A stretch of 64,000 nucleotides of DNA from contig NZ_VAUV01000020.1 in assembly GCF_005780165.1 (NCBI RefSeq), positions 1 through 64,000 on the forward strand. Direction: 5' to 3'. Source of the stretch: Phragmitibacter flavus. Lineage in GTDB: Bacteria > Verrucomicrobiota > Verrucomicrobiia > Verrucomicrobiales > Verrucomicrobiaceae. Each line of letters begins with the position of its first letter. The first letter of the stretch is position 1. This document shows, one piece after another, positions 1 through 51,503 of this stretch. A program made the position numbers and the translations under genes. Below the pieces are notes generated by a model. The model was not told where the DNA came from and made no database searches. It worked only from the letters and a program-made list of their open reading frames with translations.

Positions 1-80
1 ACTGGCCTGCCGGTGTTGATGAGTTCAACGGCCTGTGCTTTAAATTCGGCGGTGTATCGTTTGCGTGGCTTCGATGTCAT
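1..80 (-). CDS. IS3-family transposase OrfA, N-terminal fragment (runs off left edge)
   Basis: The minus strand from 80 reads M-T-S-K-P-R-K-R-Y-T-A-E-F-K-A-Q-A-V-E-L-I and continues off the window. The basic start followed by RYTAEFKAQAVEL is the usual N-terminus of IS3-type OrfA (Transposase_8, helix-turn-helix), which binds the element's ends; the catalytic OrfB would lie to the left. Only about 26 codons are visible, so intactness cannot be judged. Upstream, at 92-111, is an inverted repeat TCTGGA/TCCAGA containing TGGACC on the minus strand, which could be part of the IS end. The element would mark the left limit of the accessory region 1-4800. Confidence 0.7.
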   Translation of the reverse strand, partial: MTSKPRKRYTAEFKAQAVELINTGRP

Positions 81-91
81 TTGGATGGTAT

Positions 92-111
92 TCTGGAGTG
101 GATGGTCCAGA
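92..111. repeat. Short inverted repeat, possible IS3-type element end
   Basis: TCTGGA (92-97) and TCCAGA (106-111) form an inverted repeat just upstream of the transposase start, with TGGACC reading outward on the minus strand. Such sequences occur at IS3-family ends, but the other end lies outside the window, so this is only a suggestion. Confidence 0.3.
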
Positions 112-143
112 AATCTAGCTCACCTCAAAAGAGGTATAAAAAT

Positions 144-243
144 TGAAGATAATGTTGCAATGCGCGGACTGACCCCTGTCAATGCGCGGACTGACCCCTG
201 TCACTTTGAAGCTAATGTTGCAATGCGCGGACTGACCCCTGTC
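144..243. repeat. GGGGTCA-type 22-bp repeats, three copies
   Basis: A 22-bp unit (AATGCGCGGACTGACCCCTG plus TC) occurs at 159-180, 181-202 and 222-243. The first and third copies sit in a longer 37-bp direct repeat (144-180 and 207-243) with one mismatch. The reverse complement reads AGGGGTCAGTCCGCGCATT, the style of short repeat often found near REP-associated and other transposases. No such transposase is visible here. The last copy overlaps the stop codon of the neighbouring HNH-like gene. Confidence 0.75.
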
Positions 244-766
244 ATGGATTTTTTCCGTGCCAGCTTAGTGATGCACGCTCAATAAATCCAAAGATTTCAT
301 TGGTGTCATCCTGTTTTTCTATACCTATGTTTAGGCCGGCTCTCATGACAGTGGATGTGCTAACATTCAGCGGCGTTCTGTAATGACTGCGGTGGAGAGC
401 ACACGCTATCTTATGCATTGTTCGCTCAATTCTCTCCCAATTGAGACGAACAGTCCAAAAGTCCCTTCCTTGGTAACTAACTTGCTCCATGCAAGAGCGA
501 ACACTGGCTTTCAGCGATGGACTCAGATCAAAGGATCTAAATGTCGTTGCTAAGACTTCCTGTTTTCCAGCATCTTGAGCACCGGCAAATCCGATAAAAA
601 TATTTCGCACATACTCGTCGTCTTTTGACGTTTTTTCATTATGGAATGAGCACGAGGGAACCGTGATCAGTTGGCTGCGTTGTTTTTTCGGGAAAAAGCA
701 CTTCGCCGGAGCATGCTCCACTGAGGTTGCTTTGTTTTTGCACATGTAACAAGTTTGTGTGCTCAT
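242..766 (-). CDS. HNH-endonuclease-like zinc-finger protein
   Basis: This 174-residue protein starts with a CYMC zinc knuckle (residues 6-9), then VEHAPAKCFFPKK and VPSCSFHNEKTSKDDEY. The CxxC, EH and CxxHNxxKxxDDE pattern is that of small HNH (His-Me finger) nucleases, where the histidines bind metal and the scissile phosphate. The rest of the protein is not recognised. It ends inside the GGGGTCA repeats and lies 46 bp downstream of the DUF4145 gene on the same strand, so the two may be cotranscribed. Base composition is more AT-rich than the main body of the window, which suggests horizontal origin. The HNH assignment is by motif only; activity and role (restriction, homing or other) are unknown. 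Confidence 0.6.
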   Translation of the reverse strand: MSTQTCYMCKNKATSVEHAPAKCFFPKKQRSQLITVPSCSFHNEKTSKDDEYVRNIFIGFAGAQDAGKQEVLATTFRSFDLSPSLKASVRSCMEQVSYQGRDFWTVRLNWERIERTMHKIACALHRSHYRTPLNVSTSTVMRAGLNIGIEKQDDTNEIFGFIERASLSWHGKNP

Positions 767-812
767 TCTTTAAAACCATAAGACAAAAATTGTAAAATGG
801 TCGTCTAGCTTG

Positions 813-1526
813 TCACCCTTTGATTGTTTTTCTTCTCTGAGGAACCTTATTCTTCAAAAACTGAGCTTTGCCTTCGTTTATATAGATAGTTTCGATTAAA
901 CCCTCCGCAATATCTAGAGAGCTGATTATGTCCAGTCGCGAAGGGGAAAAGTTCCGATGAATGGACGCGTGGCCTATTTCAAGAGTATCTTCAATAATCT
1001 TCTTTTGACGTGGCGAGATACCTCCTGCAATCTGAAGATTATAAAGTTGTTTTTGGAACGAGCCATTGTCACCGACCTGATCAATCATAATGCTTTCTAA
1101 GAGCGCCCGGACCCCCATGGCTGCCAGGGCATAGCATTTGCTATGGAGCGCAGAATAAATTTCTGGAATTAGTCGGGTTACGAATTCGGGCAGCCAGATG
1201 ATTGCAAGCTTCTGACCATCTACAAGTGTCATTGCGTGCGTCCATGTGGGCATTCTTCGGAAGGTGGCTGGGGGATAGTAATTGATGGAGGGAACTTCTC
1301 GCCCATCTTCATCTGTCACTTCTGATTGTAAGCACGTATGCCGGAATGTGATAGATTCACACCCGGCACACTGCAACAATTCATAAAAGTCTTCACCGTG
1401 GATTCGAGCCGGTGGGTCTTCAGAAAGAATCTCGTTCCGGGCAGTCTTATGGTAGTGAATAAGGAAGTGGTTTCGATCTCCTGAACACTGGTTGCAGTGC
1501 GCTTTGACAATGTCGCCTTGATTCAT
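813..1526 (-). CDS. DUF4145 domain protein
   Basis: The 237-residue protein has a CNQCSGDRNH zinc knuckle near residue 11 and a second Cys pair (CAGC) near residue 53. A helical C-terminal part follows, with the DUF4145 signature ALAAMGVRALLESIMID, then SPRQKKIIEDTLEIGHASIH, in which G-H-A-x-x-H is the typical core. DUF4145 occurs alone, attached to HsdR-type restriction subunits, and in mobile accessory regions; its biochemical role is not settled. ATG at 1526 is the obvious start. The gene lies 29 bp downstream of the P-loop gene on the same strand and upstream of the HNH-like gene, consistent with a three-gene accessory operon. Confidence 0.7.
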   Translation of the reverse strand: MNQGDIVKAHCNQCSGDRNHFLIHYHKTARNEILSEDPPARIHGEDFYELLQCAGCESITFRHTCLQSEVTDEDGREVPSINYYPPATFRRMPTWTHAMTLVDGQKLAIIWLPEFVTRLIPEIYSALHSKCYALAAMGVRALLESIMIDQVGDNGSFQKQLYNLQIAGGISPRQKKIIEDTLEIGHASIHRNFSPSRLDIISSLDIAEGLIETIYINEGKAQFLKNKVPQRRKTIKG

Positions 1527-1555
1527 GAGGAATGCTAATTGGAAGAATTTGCTTG

Positions 1556-2239
1556 CTAGATGATCAGGCTGATGTCGTTGTTTATTTCCCTGAAAGGGCG
1601 TTTTTTGCCTTCTGTTGTGAATACTGACACGGTGTTCGCTGCAACCTCGCCAGAAGCCAGAAACGCAAAAAAATCGTCAATATTTGAAGACCAGTGTGAA
1701 ATGTTGAGGTTGCGTCCGGTATCACGCTCTCTAGTCAAAAAGGAATAGAGGCATTGCCCCGGTGATCCTTCGAAATAGATGATTCTAAACATTCCACGGG
1801 CTGCTGCAATGTGCTTCTGTCTTAAGATGGGAAAGCCAGGAAAAGACAAAACAATTCCCGACTTTTTGGCGGTTTTTGCGCGTTGATCGAGTTCAGTAAG
1901 AAGTGGTATCGGATCACAGCTCAGAAAAAACCTATCCCACTGAGGTTTCAGCCCGTGATGAATCATACCATCTACTGGTGGCCACAAATCAGCCTCAATA
2001 AAAACAAGCCTCTCGTGTTCAGCTAGCTGCTCGCTGAGGTAGGACTTGCCTGCCCCTGAAGGGCCAAGGGAAAATGTGTGCATGGTTTTGTGGCTCAGGA
2101 GGTTGTTTAAGAAATGGCTTTGGCTACTTATCACAGTTTCACGGCCTAATCCTTCGAAAAAATATCTTTTAAGGGATTCCGAAGCTTGATGTATAGATTG
2201 GGGGGTATTATAATGTTTGAGTTGATACAATGCTCCCAT
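1556..2239 (-). CDS. P-loop kinase-like protein
   Basis: The 227-residue protein has a clear Walker A motif, GPSGAGKS, at about residues 58-65. A hydrophobic strand with acidic end follows (RLVFIEADLW), then IVLSFPGFPIL and an Arg-rich lid-like stretch LTRERDTGR. This arrangement is that of small nucleoside, gluconate or shikimate-kinase-like P-loop proteins (AAA_33-type), but no specific substrate can be named. The first 50 residues may be a separate helical region; a second start exists at the Met just before HTFSLGPSG. It leads a same-strand run of three genes with the DUF4145 and HNH-like genes. No homologue was recognised with certainty. Confidence 0.55.
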   Translation of the reverse strand: MGALYQLKHYNTPQSIHQASESLKRYFFEGLGRETVISSQSHFLNNLLSHKTMHTFSLGPSGAGKSYLSEQLAEHERLVFIEADLWPPVDGMIHHGLKPQWDRFFLSCDPIPLLTELDQRAKTAKKSGIVLSFPGFPILRQKHIAAARGMFRIIYFEGSPGQCLYSFLTRERDTGRNLNISHWSSNIDDFFAFLASGEVAANTVSVFTTEGKKRPFREINNDISLII

Positions 2240-2399
2240 CCAAGCGTTGTTGTGTCAGAAGCGTAACCCGTTGATAATCAACGCACCATTTTGAGATTTG
2301 AGGCTTCTCGTAGGGGTCGCCATCTTTACCTAGGCAGTAGCGAGGCAAATCGGTCATAAAGTGAGGCATTAGGTCACTCTGTGGAAATACACCCCGCAC
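2208..2399 (-). CDS. Small hypothetical ORF overlapping the P-loop gene start
   Basis: A 63-codon reading frame ends 32 bp inside the P-loop gene in another frame. The composition (PHFMTDLPRYCLGKDGDP) looks protein-like and not simple repeat, so it may be a small gene or the remains of a longer one cut by the repeat-rich DNA upstream. No family was recognised. Treat it as uncertain. Confidence 0.25.
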   Translation of the reverse strand: MRGVFPQSDLMPHFMTDLPRYCLGKDGDPYEKPQISKWCVDYQRVTLLTQQRLDGSIVSTQTL

Positions 2400-2576
2400 G
2401 CGAAAGCAAGATTTTGGCGGTTAGTGCGCTACCGCAACACGTTGTTGCCGCATTTTGGTTTGAATCGATCCTGTCCTGACGCCAAGGCTAACCTCATCCA
2501 ACCGCGTGATGCCCATTCTTCATTGTCCGCTGCATTCTTGTTGTGGGTGCTCACCCTGTCAAGGTTTTGCACACTG

Positions 2577-2674
2577 ACCCCATTGCTTTGCTGACCCCTG
2601 ACCCCATTGCTTTGCTGACCCCTGACCCCATTGCTTTGACCCCATTTCTTCCTCACTGACCCCATTTCTTCCCG
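2577..2674. repeat. Tandem TGACCCC repeat array
   Basis: Two perfect 24-bp units (ACCCCATTGCTTTGCTGACC plus CCTG) at 2577-2600 and 2601-2624 are followed by a shortened third copy (2625-2638) and two ACCCCATTTCTTCC variants to 2674. On the minus strand the core reads GGGGTCAG, as in the array at 144-243, so the two arrays probably share an origin. The array makes an apparent repetitive ORF on the minus strand (2429-2665) that is not believed to be a gene. The rest of 2400-2681 shows nothing recognisable. Confidence 0.75.
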
Positions 2675-2681
2675 TTCAATT

Positions 2682-3524
2682 TTACCTCCAGTCGGCGGGA
2701 GGTGACTTCGTCCATTTCTCGGGATATTTGAATATTCGATGTTCCGTGTATGGCAAGTTAACTATTCGGGATGTGATTCCCATACCAAACCCAACAAAAC
2801 CTATTTTGATTGCCTTGGCGGGCTCAAAGAATGCCGCCCATTCAATGCCACCTATCATGCAAATAATACACCAACCGAGAGTGTTTTCTTCGCAGTCAAC
2901 TCCAATATCTTCACGCGGGTCGTGCTTCGGATCCGATTTAGGAGTGGTAAAGCGCCAAGCGGTGGTCATTATTTTTTCAGTCGGTCGCCCCAATAGCGTC
3001 CTTCTTAGTCGCTTTACTAAATATATTGGGAGCTTTCTGCTTCCCCAAGGAACGCTCGTGCAATAATGAACCCTAATGGCAACATATGCCACAAACAGTT
3101 CAATAAGGTCGAACCTCAACCTCCAATATCTATCTCCAAAAAGATATGTTGTCCCATACTTGCGGAGCATTTTCCTATCCCTATTGACAATCGATTTAGC
3201 GTAGTTTTCTACTATCGAGGCTTTCTGCTCGCATGAAGAGCACAACAGATAGTGTTTATTGCTATCTTGGAGTTGTATTTTTAGGCCATTGTTCAGTTGT
3301 GAAATATTCACTACTCCGCCCCATGCAGTTTTATGCCAATCGAATGCCCAACTTGGAATGATGTGGCTAAGACGAAGCGAAGAGCGCGTTCCGCACACGA
3401 TACATCTTCTGAGGATTCCCCCGGCTGTCCTTTGATCACTCCCATCAATACTTTTTATCTTTTGTCCCGAATCAGTATCGAAGACCTTCCATCTTCCTCT
3501 CCGAGGGTAGTTGCGCTTTTTCAT
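2682..3524 (-). CDS. HNH-like zinc-finger protein, larger type
   Basis: This 280-residue protein has CIVCGTRSSLRLSHIIPSWA at about residues 41-60 and LLCSSCEQKAS at about 93-103. The CxxC, SHIIP and CxxCE series is a common HNH or zinc-ribbon nuclease arrangement, with the SH histidine as the candidate catalytic or metal ligand. The remaining 170 residues contain hydrophobic segments (LFVAYVAIRVHY; MIGGIEWAAFF) and no family I recognise. It is the second HNH-like gene within 3 kb, and both are minus-strand and AT-rich compared with the core genome. It could be a defence nuclease or a degenerate mobile-element nuclease. Confidence 0.5.
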   Translation of the reverse strand: MKKRNYPRRGRWKVFDTDSGQKIKSIDGSDQRTAGGILRRCIVCGTRSSLRLSHIIPSWAFDWHKTAWGGVVNISQLNNGLKIQLQDSNKHYLLCSSCEQKASIVENYAKSIVNRDRKMLRKYGTTYLFGDRYWRLRFDLIELFVAYVAIRVHYCTSVPWGSRKLPIYLVKRLRRTLLGRPTEKIMTTAWRFTTPKSDPKHDPREDIGVDCEENTLGWCIICMIGGIEWAAFFEPAKAIKIGFVGFGMGITSRIVNLPYTEHRIFKYPEKWTKSPPADWR

Positions 3525-3686
3525 TCATTAATCGTAGAAGCGTTTACCGTTGCACGAATAGAGGCAATATTTGCAGCTTCTGATCACGTGCTACTTTTGG
3601 GCTTCTGCATTCATTGTTGAACTCGGCGAACACCACATTCCCCTCATTGAGTAGAGGGCAATTTCACTCAGTGTTGGCGCTTTGAA

Positions 3687-3890
3687 TTACCTGCTGCCGT
3701 AAATCTCCTTAACCTTTTCAACAGCTGCCTCCTCGGCAATTTTGATGACCTTATCGGCGAATTTTCCTAATTCCCGTTCAAGTTGTATACCCCTTTGCGT
3801 TTGCTTGGCGGGATCGGATGAAGGCGGTGACTGTAGAGCATTCACAAGTGAAATTAGTTCGTGGCTGATTTCGTGGCTACGGTAGGACAT
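3687..3890 (-). CDS. Small hypothetical protein (67 aa), likely helical
   Basis: Starting at ATG 3890, the protein is predicted to be almost entirely helical, with an amphipathic second half (GKFADKVIKIAEEAAVEKVK). No domain was recognised. The normal amino-acid composition supports a real gene, but it stands alone between AT-rich spacers (3525-3686 and 3891-4017) in which nothing else is visible. Confidence 0.4.
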   Translation of the reverse strand: MSYRSHEISHELISLVNALQSPPSSDPAKQTQRGIQLERELGKFADKVIKIAEEAAVEKVKEIYGSR

Positions 3891-4017
3891 GGTGTTTAAG
3901 ATGTTATGTTGTTAGCGGTTACTAAACACACCTGCGGTATCGAGTAAAGTCTGGCAATAGTGTATTTCAAAACAAAAAACCCTTTGCACAATGCGGACAA
4001 AGTGCTTTTAGCTTTCC

Positions 4018-4251
4018 ATGTCCTACGAACTGCTTTGGAACCATGCTCGGGAGATGCTGAAAACGGCAGAACAGCCAGTTCTCACGCGCAAGAAGATTGC
4101 GGAAATCCTTGGCGTCGAATCGATTGAGAAAGAAGATCTCATCGAGGCGTTTAGAGCTGAAGATCCTGAGGGGTTCATGTTCGACTTGCGCTGGATAGAC
4201 CTTCCACTCTGGGAAGTGGTGTTCTACAAAAGCCTGAGCCAAGTGTCATAA
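4018..4251 (+). CDS. Small hypothetical protein (77 aa)
   Basis: The ATG at 4018 opens a 77-residue frame with a plausible globular sequence (RKKIAEILGVESIEKEDL looks like a small helix-turn-helix-like helical unit) ending in a hydrophobic strand region, LPLWEVVFY. The antiparallel frame at 3967-4242 is the alternative; the plus-strand frame has the more protein-like composition. Its function is unknown. A 7-bp stem-loop follows at 4303-4320. Confidence 0.45.
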   Translation: MSYELLWNHAREMLKTAEQPVLTRKKIAEILGVESIEKEDLIEAFRAEDPEGFMFDLRWIDLPLWEVVFYKSLSQVS

Positions 4252-4817
4252 CCCATCTCCTCGGAAAATGTCGGATTTTTGCTATCAGCTCGCGACGTAA
4301 TTTCGTGAACGTTTTCACGATAAACGATCGTCCAGAAATGCCTTAGGAATCAATTTGAGGATTGTTTTGTGTTTTTCCGCCAGAAGCGACCTGTCAAACT
4401 CAACGCGGGGATGAATGGGGTCAGGGGGCAGTATGCAAAAAATTGACCGATTGCATCTTTTATATTGAATAGGACTATGACGGATAGTGAATTTGACCCA
4501 GAGTCGGTGGCGGTTTTGAAGTAGGACCGCAGGGGAAGGTATTGACGACATTCTGCCAACGCATGGCGTTGTTTAAGCAGTTCAACAGGTCTAGATTGAG
4601 AGGTGCAATAGGTCTGGATTGAGCGGTGCCGAATTTGCGCGTGTGGCCGGTATAAACTATTGGACTTTCTCCTCCTTGAGCCAAGAGCAGAAGCGGTCAG
4701 GGCATAAGTCGTCTTTAAGATATCCTCCTGACGAGACTAAAACATTAAACAGGGCACATTTTCGCATCCTGCTTTTTGATGATGTGTTATCTCAGTTCCC
4801 AGATGTTTGGCATCCGC
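4252..4817. other. Gene-poor spacer with IS debris
   Basis: No intact gene is visible in these 566 bases. They contain a stem-loop TCGTGAA/TTCACGA (4303-4320), an isolated GGGGTCAGG motif near 4418, a 22-bp imperfect direct repeat around 4587-4627 (AGGTCTAGATTGAG and AGGTCTGGATTGAG), and a transposase-like remnant (separate entry). The G-rich, high-GC texture of the rest of the window begins abruptly at about 4830, inside the RND gene. Confidence 0.6.
4598..4720 (+). pseudogene. Remnant of an IS66-type accessory/transposase HTH protein
   Basis: The plus-strand frame reads SGLSGAEFARVAGINYWTF followed by SSLSQEQKRSG. This is the style of helix-turn-helix region in IS66-associated TnpA-like proteins (GxSxxEFxxxxGINYxTFxxW). 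The frame lacks a proper start and decays into unrelated sequence, so it is read as a leftover of an insertion sequence. The family assignment is by memory of the motif only. Confidence 0.35.
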
Positions 4818-7800
4818 TTAATGCGGTTGGGGCAGGGCGGGGGAGGCGGGTGGTTGTTGGGGGTGGTCTTCTGAAACGGCTTTTTTGCGGGAGAACTTGA
4901 CGGTGAGTTTGCGGATGACCAGATAAAATACCGGGGTGAGGACGAGGCCGAAGATGGTGACGCCGATCATGCCGAAGAACACGGCGGTGCCGAGGGCTTG
5001 ACGCATCTCAGAACCGGCACCGGAGGCGAGGACGAGGGGGGTGACGCCGAGGATGAAGGCGAGAGAGGTCATCAAGATGGGGCGGAGTCGGAGACGGGCG
5101 GCTTCGACGGTGGCGTCGAAGATGTTCTTGCCCTGGTCTTCCAGTTGTTTGGCGAACTCGACGATGAGGATGGCGTTTTTGGAGGCGAGTCCAACGAGCA
5201 CCACGAAGCCGATTTGAGTGAAGATGTTGTTGTCCATGCCGCGCCAGATGACGCCCCAAAGAGCGGCAAGGATGACGAGGGGAACGATGAGGATGATGGC
5301 GAGAGGAAGGGACCAGCTTTCATATTGCGCGGCGAGGGCGAGGAACACGAAGATGACGCAGAGGGGGAAGATGAAGATGGCAGAGTTGCCAGCGAGGATC
5401 TCTTGAAGGGTGAGCTCGGTCCAGTCGAAGGTGAAGCCGCGCGGGAGTTCGGTTTTGGCGAGGTTTTCCATCATGGCGATGGCCTGACCGGAGGAGACGC
5501 CGGGGAGCGTGCTGCCGGAGAGGTCGGCGCTGGCGGCGGTGTTGAAGCTGGCGGCGATGTCGAGTCCGGTGGTTTCGTGAATGGTGACGAGGGTGCCGAG
5601 GGGGACCATCTGGCCTTGGTCGTTACGGACCTTGAGGCGGGTGATGTCAGAGGGTTTGACACGGAACTTGGCTTCGGCCTGGGCGGTGACTTGATAGACG
5701 CGACCGAATCGGTTGAAGTCGTTGACGTAAATGGAACCGAGGCAGGTTTGCAGGGTTTCAAAGATGTCGGCGAGGCGGATGCCCATGGACTTGGCTTTGA
5801 AGCGGTCGACGTCGACGCGGATCTGCGGGACGTTGGGACGCATGGTGGTGAAGACGCTGGTGAGGCCGGGGAGGGTGTTGGCCTTTTGCATCATGTTGAA
5901 CGCAACGCCGGCGAGGGCGTCTTTGCCTTGGGCGTTGTTGTCTTTGATTTGAAGTTTGAATCCGCCGGTGTTGCCGAGTCCGTCCACGGGCGGAGGGGGA
6001 AAGCAGAACACCATGGCTTCCTGCATGGCACCGTAGGCTCCACTGATCTGGCCGAGGATGGCGCCCATGCTTTTGTTGGGGTCTTTGGCGCGGAGTTCGA
6101 AGTCTTCGAGGATGATGAAAAGGGTGCCGGCGTTGGGCATGGCGGAGCCGCCGGAGAGAAGGTGAAAGCCAGGGATTTCGATGCTGTGGGCAACGCCGGG
6201 GATGCTGCGGGCGATGCGGGTCATTTCGTTGGTGACCTTGCGGGTTCGCTCGATGGAAGCGGCATCGGGCAGCTGGGCAAAGGCGATGAGATAACCTTTA
6301 TCGCTGGTGGGAACGAAGCCGGCGGGGACGCTGGTGAAGGTGCGTCCGGTGAGGAACAGCAGGCCGACGTAAATGAGCAGGGCGATCACGGAGAAGCGCA
6401 GGGCGCGTCGCACGATGCCGGTGTAGCCGTTGGTGAATTTTTCGAACAGCCAGTTGAAGCCGTTGAAGAGCCAGCCAAGGGTGAAGTTGATGAGGCGTTG
6501 GAACCAGTCGGGTTTGGCACCGTGAGGTTTGAGCAGGATGGCGCTGAGAGCCGGGGAAAGGGTGAGGGAGTTGAAGGCGGAGATGACAGTGGCGACCGCA
6601 ATGGTGAGGGCGAACTGCCGGTAGAACTGGCCGGTGAGTCCGGTCATGAAAGCGGTGGGCACGAACACGGCGGTGAGGACGATGGCGACGCCGATGACGG
6701 GTCCGGAGACTTCCTCCATGGCGCGTCGGGTGGCGGCGAGAGGGGTTAGTCCGAGGGCGATGTTTCGCTCGACGTTTTCGACCACGACGATGGCGTCATC
6801 GACCACGATCCCAATGGCGAGAACGAGACCGAACATGGTGAGGTTGTTCAGCGAGAAGCCGAACAGTTTCATGACCAGGAAGGTGCCGATGATGGAGACG
6901 GGAACGGCGAGCAGCGGGATGATGGAGGCGCGCCAGTTTTGCAGGAAGATGATGACGACGAGAACGACGAGGATGAGCGCTTCGATGAAGGTATGGATGA
7001 CGGCGTCGATGGACTTTTGGGTGAACATCGTGGTGTCGTAAACGATGCGGTAGTCGAGTCCGGGGGGGAATGATTGTTTGAGTTCCTCCATGCGTTCGCG
7101 GACGGCGGCACTGGTTTCGAGGGCGTTGGAACCGGGGAGCTGGAAGACGCCGAGGGAGCCGGTGGCCTGACCGTCGAGATAAGATTCCATGTTGTAGTCG
7201 CGTCCGGCGAGTTCGACACGGGCAACGTCTTTGACGCGGGTGACCTGGCCGTCGTCGCCGCTTTTGACGATGATGTTTTCGAATTCGGCGACTTCAATGA
7301 GCCGGCCCTGGGTGCTGATGGTGAGTTGGTAGTCGGTGCCCATCGGAGCAGGCGGGGCGCCGAGAATCCCGGCGGCGGCCTGCACGTTTTGTTCGCGGAT
7401 GGCATTGACGACGTCGGTGACGGTCATGTTGCGCGAAGAGATCTTGTCGGGGTCGAGCCAGATGCGCATCGAGTATTCGGAACCGCCGAAGTTTTGCACG
7501 AGGCCGACGCCGGGGAGACGGGCGAGCTGGTCCTTGAGGTTGAGGAGCGCGTAGTTGCCGACGTAAAGATCGCTGAGGCTGTTGTCGGGCGAGATGAGGT
7601 TGACGACGAGGGTGAAGTTGGGCGACTGTTTGACGGTGGTGACGCCGAGTCGGCGCACGTCCTCGGGGAGTCGGGCTTCGGCGACGGCGACGCGGTTTTG
7701 CACCTGGACCTGGGCGATGTCGAGATCGGTGCCGAGTTTGAACGTGACGATGATGGTGCAGGTGCCGTCGGAGGTGCTGTTGGAGCTCATGTAGAGCATG

Positions 7801-47335: not shown

Positions 47336-47489
47336 TTGGGCGGTGAGCGAAGAGAAAAGATGAACGAATCGTTCGGAAGTCTGGTGGAAATTGAGGGATT
47401 TGGCCTTCCCAATTCAATAAGTTACGATTCCGTCACATAAGGGCTCCGTGCTTGCCCGATGGTCAATCGCCCCGGAAGATCGCGGCCCA

Positions 47490-48041
47490 ATGTCCGAGCC
47501 CACTGTTTCTGATCCATCCGAATTCCCTCCTAATGCCAATCAAGATTCGATGACCGGGAACGCGATCTATCTGCTGCGCACGGTTCATCAGCATCACGTG
47601 GCCCTCAGTGCGCTTGCCGATCAGAAGGCCAGCTTTCTTCTTGGTGGAACCATCGTGATCCTCGGTTTCGTCGCGACGGCGAATCAGCAAGCCTCCATCG
47701 GCCTGCCATTTCTTGTTTTGGCAGCGGGATCGGTTCTTGCATTGGTGTTCTGCTGTCTGACTTTGATCCCGCGGATCCGTTTTCATGACCCGAAACAACC
47801 CGGATTTAACCTGCTATTTTGCAGTCACTTCATCAACTTGAGCGAGGATGAGTTCATTCGCCGGATGAAGGCGACCATTGATCGCGACGCGTCAATTTCT
47901 GAAGCCTTGTCACGAGACATTTATCAGATGGGCGGCATCATTGTCCGTCGCAAATTGAAGACCCTGAGGTTTGCCTACGGGGCCTTTCTGGCAGGGATTA
48001 TCGCCTGCGTCGTTGGCTGTGTGTTGCAGGCGATTTTTTGA
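47490..48041 (+). CDS. Two-helix membrane protein, Pycsar-effector (PycTM/DUF5706)-like
   Basis: From ATG 47490 (a GTG at 47448 is the alternative) the 183-residue protein has YLLRTVHQHHVALSALADQK, then two membrane helices (FLLGGTIVILGFVATAN; FLVLAAGSVLALVFCCLTLI). A cytoplasmic segment with FINLSEDEFIRRMKATIDRD follows, then a C-terminal helix. The order helix with A-D-x-K, two membrane spans, then F..L..EEF and a final ALSRDIYQMGGIIVRRKLK is that of the Pycsar effector membrane domain, which disrupts the membrane in response to cyclic nucleotides in phage defence. No pyrimidine cyclase gene is in the window. It ends 20 bp before the duplicated tRNA-Thr end of the island. Confidence 0.65.
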   Translation: MSEPTVSDPSEFPPNANQDSMTGNAIYLLRTVHQHHVALSALADQKASFLLGGTIVILGFVATANQQASIGLPFLVLAAGSVLALVFCCLTLIPRIRFHDPKQPGFNLLFCSHFINLSEDEFIRRMKATIDRDASISEALSRDIYQMGGIIVRRKLKTLRFAYGAFLAGIIACVVGCVLQAIF

Positions 48042-48713: not shown

Positions 48714-49316
48714 CTATGAGGAGCCGATTAATTTTTCTTTAATCAGACGTATCTCTATCACAGTTGTAGACACCGCAAAGTGGCCCGCAAGGGCATCCAC
48801 GGCCTCTACAAGGATGCCCTCCTCAATGGGTTTGGATGAGTCCACGTAAAGCGCCAATCGGGAACTCAACTCATTGCGTGGGACCAACAATGCACCAGCA
48901 AATTCATTCGCATGATATTCCAGGAAACTATATTCTCGTTCCGGAATCTCGGAATAGAATTCCCTCAACTTTTTCTCATCTTTCGGGAACTGTTCAGCCA
49001 ACTCGCGATGTAATACATAGTGTCCGATTTCATGAGCCACACTGTATCGCATTCGCCCATGAAATCGACCCTGCATATATTGATCCCGATCGACGGCAAG
49101 CGTGTTGAAATCTATCCCCAGTAAGGCATCAACTCCAAGGTCATTTAGGAGATTATCTACAACGCGCATTTCCAAACCTAAACCAAACTCAGCTATGGCC
49201 AGGACGTCGATTGGGTAATCACCACTGGGCCAAAATTCTTCTCGGAATTCATCAGCGCGAGACCAGCAAACTTTGGCAGGATAATAAGGGGCTCGAAAAA
49301 GTGGAGGATCAGGCAT
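48714..49316 (-). CDS. ImmA/IrrE-family metallopeptidase
   Basis: The 200-residue protein contains YSVAHEIGHYVLHRE (HExxH with the second His further on) and FLEYHANEFAGALLVP, where the Glu of the H-x-N-E-F segment completes the zinc site. This is the ImmA/IrrE (M78) type, which cleaves an XRE-type repressor after DNA damage or another signal. The XRE gene lies 8 bp upstream on the same strand, the usual partner. In ICE-type elements such a pair controls excision. It may also act as a toxin-antitoxin-like module. Confidence 0.9.
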   Translation of the reverse strand: MPDPPLFRAPYYPAKVCWSRADEFREEFWPSGDYPIDVLAIAEFGLGLEMRVVDNLLNDLGVDALLGIDFNTLAVDRDQYMQGRFHGRMRYSVAHEIGHYVLHRELAEQFPKDEKKLREFYSEIPEREYSFLEYHANEFAGALLVPRNELSSRLALYVDSSKPIEEGILVEAVDALAGHFAVSTTVIEIRLIKEKLIGSS

Positions 49317-49324
49317 ATAAACAA

Positions 49325-49705
49325 TTAGCTATTCTGAATTTTCTCAATGATGGCCTGCATCTCCTCATCTGTTGGCTTTTTACCCCTAAGAGTTCTGAAA
49401 AAAGCTGGTAAAAATTTCACAATGGAATCTTCATTCATAAGATCGCTAGGGATCTTTCCTCGATCCGCCGCCGCGTGATCAAAAAAACGAAGCCAAGCGT
49501 CATCGCCTTCAATTAAACCCAGAGCGGTCGCGTATCGCTCTAAAATCGCTCTATCGTGAGGAGGCGGCAAAAGGCCTCGCTCGATTCTACTAATATTTCC
49601 CGGGTCAGCTTGTGCGGCGATGCTGAAGCTACGCAGTGATATTTTCTTGAGCATCCTCAGAGATTTAAGGTAGCCCCCGAATGTAGTGATGGTCGTTTGA
49701 TTCAT
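49325..49705 (-). CDS. XRE-family helix-turn-helix regulator, partner of ImmA-type protease
   Basis: The ATG at 49705 is chosen over one eight codons upstream because TTFGGYLKSLRMLKKISLR begins the domain. The helix-turn-helix is SLRSFSIAAQADPGNISRIE followed by RGLLPP, as in cI/Xre proteins. The last 60 residues are acidic and probably the protease-sensitive or dimerisation part. It is first in a two-gene unit with the ImmA-type gene, so it should repress this unit and perhaps the lost integration genes. The region upstream (49706-49978) is AT-rich and gene-poor. Confidence 0.88.
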   Translation of the reverse strand: MNQTTITTFGGYLKSLRMLKKISLRSFSIAAQADPGNISRIERGLLPPPHDRAILERYATALGLIEGDDAWLRFFDHAAADRGKIPSDLMNEDSIVKFLPAFFRTLRGKKPTDEEMQAIIEKIQNS

Positions 49706-49808
49706 TGGGAATAAGGGTATGGGGATCACATATTAACTACGAATGTTGTATAAAATCAACAACAAGATTCAATCATGCACCTAATAAATGGTTCAAAAGA
49801 ACACATTT

Positions 49809-51427: not shown

Positions 51428-51503
51428 TGGAGCCGGTTGTCGGACTCGAACCGACGACCTGCTGATTACAAATCAGCTGCTCTACCAACTGAGCTAAACC
51501 GGC
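51428..51503 (-). tRNA. tRNA-Thr (anticodon TGT), CCA encoded
   Basis: The minus strand folds as a 76-nt tRNA: acceptor GCCGGTT/AACCGGC, D-arm GCTCAGTTGGTAGAGC, anticodon stem GCTGA/TCAGC around loop TTTGTAA with anticodon TGT, T-arm GTCGG/CCGAC with GTTCGAGTC, discriminator T and encoded CCA. The 3' end is duplicated at 48061-48101, marking it as an integration target. Confidence 0.95.

Follow-up and report, generated by a model that had tools for sequence, protein, structure and literature searches.

A probable islet of unlinked accessory genes among mobile-element ends at a contig edge of Phragmitibacter flavus

Four minus-strand genes at one end of a Phragmitibacter flavus contig, here labeled A to D, were described in an earlier note as a possible defence cluster. 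Having analysed the window, that is, the whole stretch of 64,000 nucleotides in which they lie, we consider it probable that the four were acquired independently and make up an islet of accessory genes, gene A being damaged, in a place with many mobile-element ends. In the searches made, relatives of these genes did not occur together, which points to collected mobile cargo rather than to a working defence system.

Four reading frames among unlike repeats

The open reading frames A, B, C and D, of 174, 237, 227 and 280 amino acids, occupy positions 242-766, 813-1526, 1556-2239 and 2682-3524, all on the minus strand. None of 1000 first-order Markov simulations of region 242-3600 produced four frames of at least 174 amino acids, and 49 produced one, the longest reaching 251 amino acids; four such frames would thus not be expected by chance, and the four genes of the earlier note are real. 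It had also placed them in AT-richer DNA, and the composition agrees: the GC content of the first four bins of 1 kb is 44-48%, against 53-64% beyond 5 kb, where two bins fall lower, that at 12-13 kb (50%) and that at 49-50 kb (46%). The AT-rich part, at the edge of contig C20, covers positions 1-4800, with 44-50% GC per bin. Codon usage differs little, with GC3 values of 43-46% for the four genes, and does not argue strongly for separate acquisition. Only C, B and A are closely packed, with gaps of 29 and 46 bases on one strand; gene D stands apart, some 440 bases upstream of C, and the repeat array described below as array 2 lies in between.

Other signals in this region are few. Scans for promoters and terminators did no better than on shuffled sequence, and the single match of Rfam models to positions 1-5000, a snoRNA below threshold, was taken as chance, as were the weak PADLOC matches (PglX, E 0.0053; JetA, E 0.0077) of a frame of 67 amino acids at 3687-3890. 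For a frame of 77 amino acids (4018-4251), a search of 58 other genomes from the family gave no relative, and a tandem repeat of 23 bases, in two copies, occupies 4583-4629. Elsewhere in the window, a membrane protein of the Pycsar effector type (47448-48041; PycTM, E 5.9e-19) lies near a tRNA-Thr gene (51428-51503), and at 48714-49729 an IrrE-like peptidase (Peptidase_M78, E 1.4e-10) adjoins a helix-turn-helix protein, whose match to HTH_31 falls slightly short of the cut-off, in the AT-rich bin at 49-50 kb.

The left edge of the contig is itself a repeat. Its first 127 bases also form the end of contig C28, without a difference, and beyond them the two sequences part, as expected of the end of a repeated element; the length of 127 bases may reflect the k-mer of the assembler. 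On the minus strand, this segment holds the start of a frame, MTSKPRKRYTAEFKAQAVELINTGRP, that runs leftward off the contig and resembles the beginning of an IS3-type OrfA, of which the first 26 codons would be present. The IS3-type end of the earlier note is therefore supported in part: it stands as a repeat end, and its assignment to IS3 is presumptive.

Array 1, at 158-244, consists of GGGGTCA units containing GGGGTCAGTCCGCGCATTGCAACATT on the minus strand. Its 14-mer GGGGTCAGTCCGCG has seven exact copies in the genome: three in array 1, three around a Y1 transposase on contig C3, and one on contig C15; allowing one mismatch raises the number of copies to 13. The transposase, which lies outside the window (L023:4888-5904; Y1_Tnp, 24.8 bits for a cut-off of 23), has two copies of GGGGTCAGTCCGCG on one side and one inverted copy on the other. 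Array 1 thus matches the end repeats of a RAYT-like Y1 transposase located elsewhere in the genome, and the arrangement resembles a RAYT unit: in the cited sections of PMC2817692, RAYT/REP systems likewise have a Y1 transposase between inverted repeats that are also present elsewhere in the genome. Most classical REPs, according to the same sections, come in tens to hundreds of copies and carry GTAG/GTGG heads; the unit of array 1, in contrast, lacks such a head and has its seven exact copies.

Array 2, at 2567-2670, is unlike array 1: its units contain GGGGTCAG and AATGGGGTCAG on the minus strand, and the five genome copies of its pattern TGACCCCNTTNNTT are all within the array. A single inverted copy of its motif is found at 4414-4431, with gene D between this copy and the array. 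Of the earlier picture of genes between GGGGTCA arrays, the two arrays are there, but their units differ and the rightmost element is one inverted copy; the mobile-element setting that it implied is supported.

Four proteins, one of them truncated

Gene A (242-766, minus strand) is a truncated member of an HNH-like nuclease family. Its stop codon, TGA at 242-244, coincides with the end of the last GGGGTCA unit of array 1. The median length of the reading frame in the family is 228 amino acids, and 53 of 61 loci have at least 206; the eight shorter frames look broken or frame-shifted. With its 174 amino acids, gene A falls short of the full-length family members. It ends at HGKNP, where 36 of the 37 aligned relatives, L055 being the exception, continue with motifs VFxY and FY. 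Inspection by eye of all downstream frames, up to the contig edge, did not reveal the missing C-terminal part. Given a stop inside the last repeat unit and the absence of the C-terminal segment, we conclude that gene A is truncated at its 3' end, at array 1. This copy is probably non-functional, having lost its C-terminal segment where the transposase end repeats now lie.

What remains of gene A is the conserved core. The alignment holds 38 sequences, gene A and 37 relatives drawn from 48 loci, 11 having been omitted as short or near-duplicate, and residues C6, Y7, C9, E17, H18, F25, V36, C39, H42 and N43 are invariant in it. They include the CxxC ... EH ... CxxHN pattern of the HNH-type treble clef, all kept in gene A and common to HNH endonucleases such as those of phage GVE2 (5h0m) and Gme (4h9d), and to the HNH domain of CBASS Cap5 (8fm1). 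Relatives were found in 12 plasmid records, of which four were examined for loci, in nine other genomes of a phylum sample of 387, at 43 loci of genome contigs and at five loci of viral contigs.

Unlike the solved HNH endonucleases, the family has no Pfam match (none of 38 members at E 0.01), nor a credible NCBIfam match among the same 38, and the model of A has no significant Foldseek match. This AlphaFold model, with a mean pLDDT of 85.1, retrieved nothing at E <= 0.001 from the PDB, where the best E is 0.2, or from BFVD, where an HNHc protein stays below the threshold (E 0.67; 50 columns at 2.4 A). Residues 1-55 of the model align with 5h0m (Z 2.9, 2.4 A over 51) and 4h9d (Z 2.5, 2.2 A over 41), scores that are tied with unrelated MarR rows; the VIA-align rows between Z 2.2 and Z 2.9, namely 5h0m, 4h9d, 8zp7, 8yha, 8fm1 and 9liq, are also tied by unrelated ones. 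A search of PDB sequences with the family profile gave a best E of 0.066. On the strength of the conserved residues, members of the family are probably solitary HNH-like nucleases that would cut DNA by means of a treble-clef metal site.

Gene B (813-1526, minus strand) encodes a zinc ribbon followed by DUF4145, a domain of the HEPN superfamily. The Pfam model PF13643 matches at E 3.2e-12, with 46.8 bits for a cut-off of 23.1 and over 86 of its 88 positions, and phrog_1305 matches at E 3.4e-18; a search of PDB sequences gave no match. The conserved His of DUF4145 is present in B, and the Cys pairs at the N-terminus are like those of the zinc-ribbon fusions given in Table 1 of PMC3710099. The parts of that paper used here assign DUF4145 to the HEPN superfamily, report that the motif Rx4-6H is mostly conserved (80%), and describe fusions to, or operons with, restriction systems; the cited part of PMC10799925 adds that the DUF4145 protein BxaP protects against phage T4. 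The description of B as a DUF4145 protein with a restriction-linked domain was consequently right. Unlike HEPN proteins with the Rx4-6H motif, B and its close relatives keep the histidine and lack the arginine (LEIGHASIH in B, DAGNAAAH-type in the relatives): the stretch 5-9 residues ahead of the His contains no Arg, either in B or in those close relatives that were aligned. A more distant relative, in genome G035, has an Arg eight residues before its His. Since the arginine is missing, B would more likely bind nucleic acid than cleave RNA.

Relatives of B were found in 23 plasmids, four of whose records were examined, and, by an alignment scan, in 31 viral contigs, near-identical copies included; a single-protein scan, which reaches close relatives only, found none, and a search of the phages collection gave none. 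The genomes searched numbered 57. Gene B would then be a solitary DUF4145/HEPN-like protein, traveling singly on plasmids and on viral or proviral contigs.

Gene C (1556-2239, minus strand) is a P-loop protein with the Walker A motif GPSGAGKS; an inner ATG, codon 53 of the frame, may be where it really begins. Matches to AAA and kinase models are weak, below curated cut-offs, and cover the Walker A stretch only. The P-loop of the "kinase-type" protein proposed earlier is thus present, and the kinase type comes down to these matches below the cut-offs. There are no relatives of C in plasmids, in 386 other genomes, or in scans of genome and viral contigs for close relatives. The single-sequence model, with a pLDDT of 33.5, is unusable, and a match to dynein (PDB by sequence, E 0.0097) was taken as chance. 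We regard C as an orphan P-loop protein, possibly a small-molecule kinase.

Gene D (2682-3524, minus strand) encodes an HNH-like protein with an N-terminal zinc finger, through which it resembles PHROG families. The N-terminus matches phrog_19960, of unknown function, at E 1.8e-10, and the sole model named HNH endonuclease, phrog_4234, only at E 0.039; a match to interleukin-17F (PDB by sequence, E 0.0021) was taken as chance. Two relatives were found, one on a Lysinibacillus plasmid and one in another genome of the 387 of the phylum sample. Gene D would be a solitary HNH-like cargo gene. The claim of two HNH-like proteins can therefore be kept as a reading of the domains of A and D, with the correction that A is cut short at array 1.

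Neighbourhoods and competing explanations

If the four genes had one function, their relatives might be expected to keep company. At the 61 loci with a relative of A, there is no relative of B, C or D at E < 1; at the 36 loci of B, where the row of L049 was read in the wrong frame and its true relative was identified separately, there is none of A, C or D at E < 0.1; and the two loci of D lack relatives of the other three genes at E < 1. The flanks examined extend to at most 8 kb and often end at contig ends. PADLOC matched none of the four proteins at E < 0.001, the best E being 0.015. Consequently, the idea of a defence cluster with a single function is not supported: no conserved neighbourhood was found at the loci examined, C has no relatives, and A is truncated. 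Assignment of the genes to unrelated metabolic families, which would also have spoken against defence, did not occur.

The neighbours of A relatives tell more about the family. Among 18 loci (20 neighbours) picked for closeness and size, the closest neighbours are restriction-modification or Shedu genes in five, a Fic protein in one, UmuC together with DUF5677 in one, and an RNase H/PD-(D/E)XK protein in one; five have metabolic, lytic or channel proteins, and five have neighbours of no family. Relatives of A are found directly downstream of Eco57I-type methylases, at 15 and 27 bases (L079:765-4514 and L083:4089-8684), overlapping hsdM by a few bases (L081:5977-9516), and beside BsuBI/PstI (L061) and Shedu SduA (L051) genes; further neighbours are aconitase, alcohol dehydrogenase, lipase and phage lysozyme. 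Near neighbours matched 175 PADLOC models and far neighbours 92, for 150 proteins in each set (49,393 and 40,943 residues), tallies that are only suggestive because one protein matches many models and the far set includes restriction subunits. The largest clusters of recurrent neighbour families span five loci, and most others correspond to near-duplicate strains. Since some relatives adjoin restriction-modification or Shedu genes, the A family, as opposed to the copy found here, may be linked to defence, a link that is plausible.

The close packing of C, B and A is operon-like, and it counts against an islet of separate genes, as do the restriction-modification and Shedu neighbours of A relatives and the excess of PADLOC matches near them. 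The packing and the restriction-modification and Shedu neighbours would suit a rare but real defence operon, in which C would be an ATP-dependent sensor or kinase, B a HEPN-like regulator binding RNA or DNA, and A an HNH effector, now truncated; the restriction link of DUF4145 and the protection against T4 by BxaP, in the cited parts of PMC3710099 and PMC10799925, lean the same way. We nevertheless think such an operon unlikely, with no other member at any of the 61 loci of A or the 36 of B, no relative of C elsewhere in the searches, and PADLOC silent on all four proteins. It is likewise doubtful that the family consists of uncharacterised HNH effectors added to restriction-modification and other defence loci, with C-B-A as what is left of such a unit, its P-loop partner being new. 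A Septu-like pair, with A as the PtuB-type HNH protein and C as the ATPase, seems very improbable. PtuB does have its HNH type in common with the A family, and PtuB models pick up some of the 38 family members with weak scores (E 0.00097 at best; the commonest model matches three members), but A itself has no PtuB match at E 0.01, nor at E 1 with PADLOC, C with its 227 amino acids has no PtuA match, only its Walker A stretch being matched, and the relatives of A have no PtuA partner and mostly other neighbours.

Each gene could also be separately mobile between transposase end repeats, as the cargo of a non-autonomous RAYT-like element, gene D being bracketed by the inverted motif of array 2. 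The inverted order of array 2 and the copy at 4414-4431 suggests this, and so do the array-1 repeats that flank the Y1 transposase of contig C3 in inverted order. However, the right side is one short copy of 18 bases, which chance or decay could explain, the genome (G000) gives one match for D and so has no second unit, and A, B and C lie between arrays of different sequence; we give this explanation a small chance. We prefer the islet of unlinked genes A to D, for which the AT-rich DNA at the contig edge, with its repeat end, also speaks, as does the exact 14-mer common to array 1 and the repeats around the Y1 transposase.

The importance of the locus as a defence cluster would be slight, because the findings speak for cargo genes without a link to one another, one of them damaged. 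The A family, on the other hand, may be worth attention: it is widespread in very different bacteria and in some viral contigs, without a Pfam match, and in several intact loci its members are adjacent to restriction or Shedu genes.
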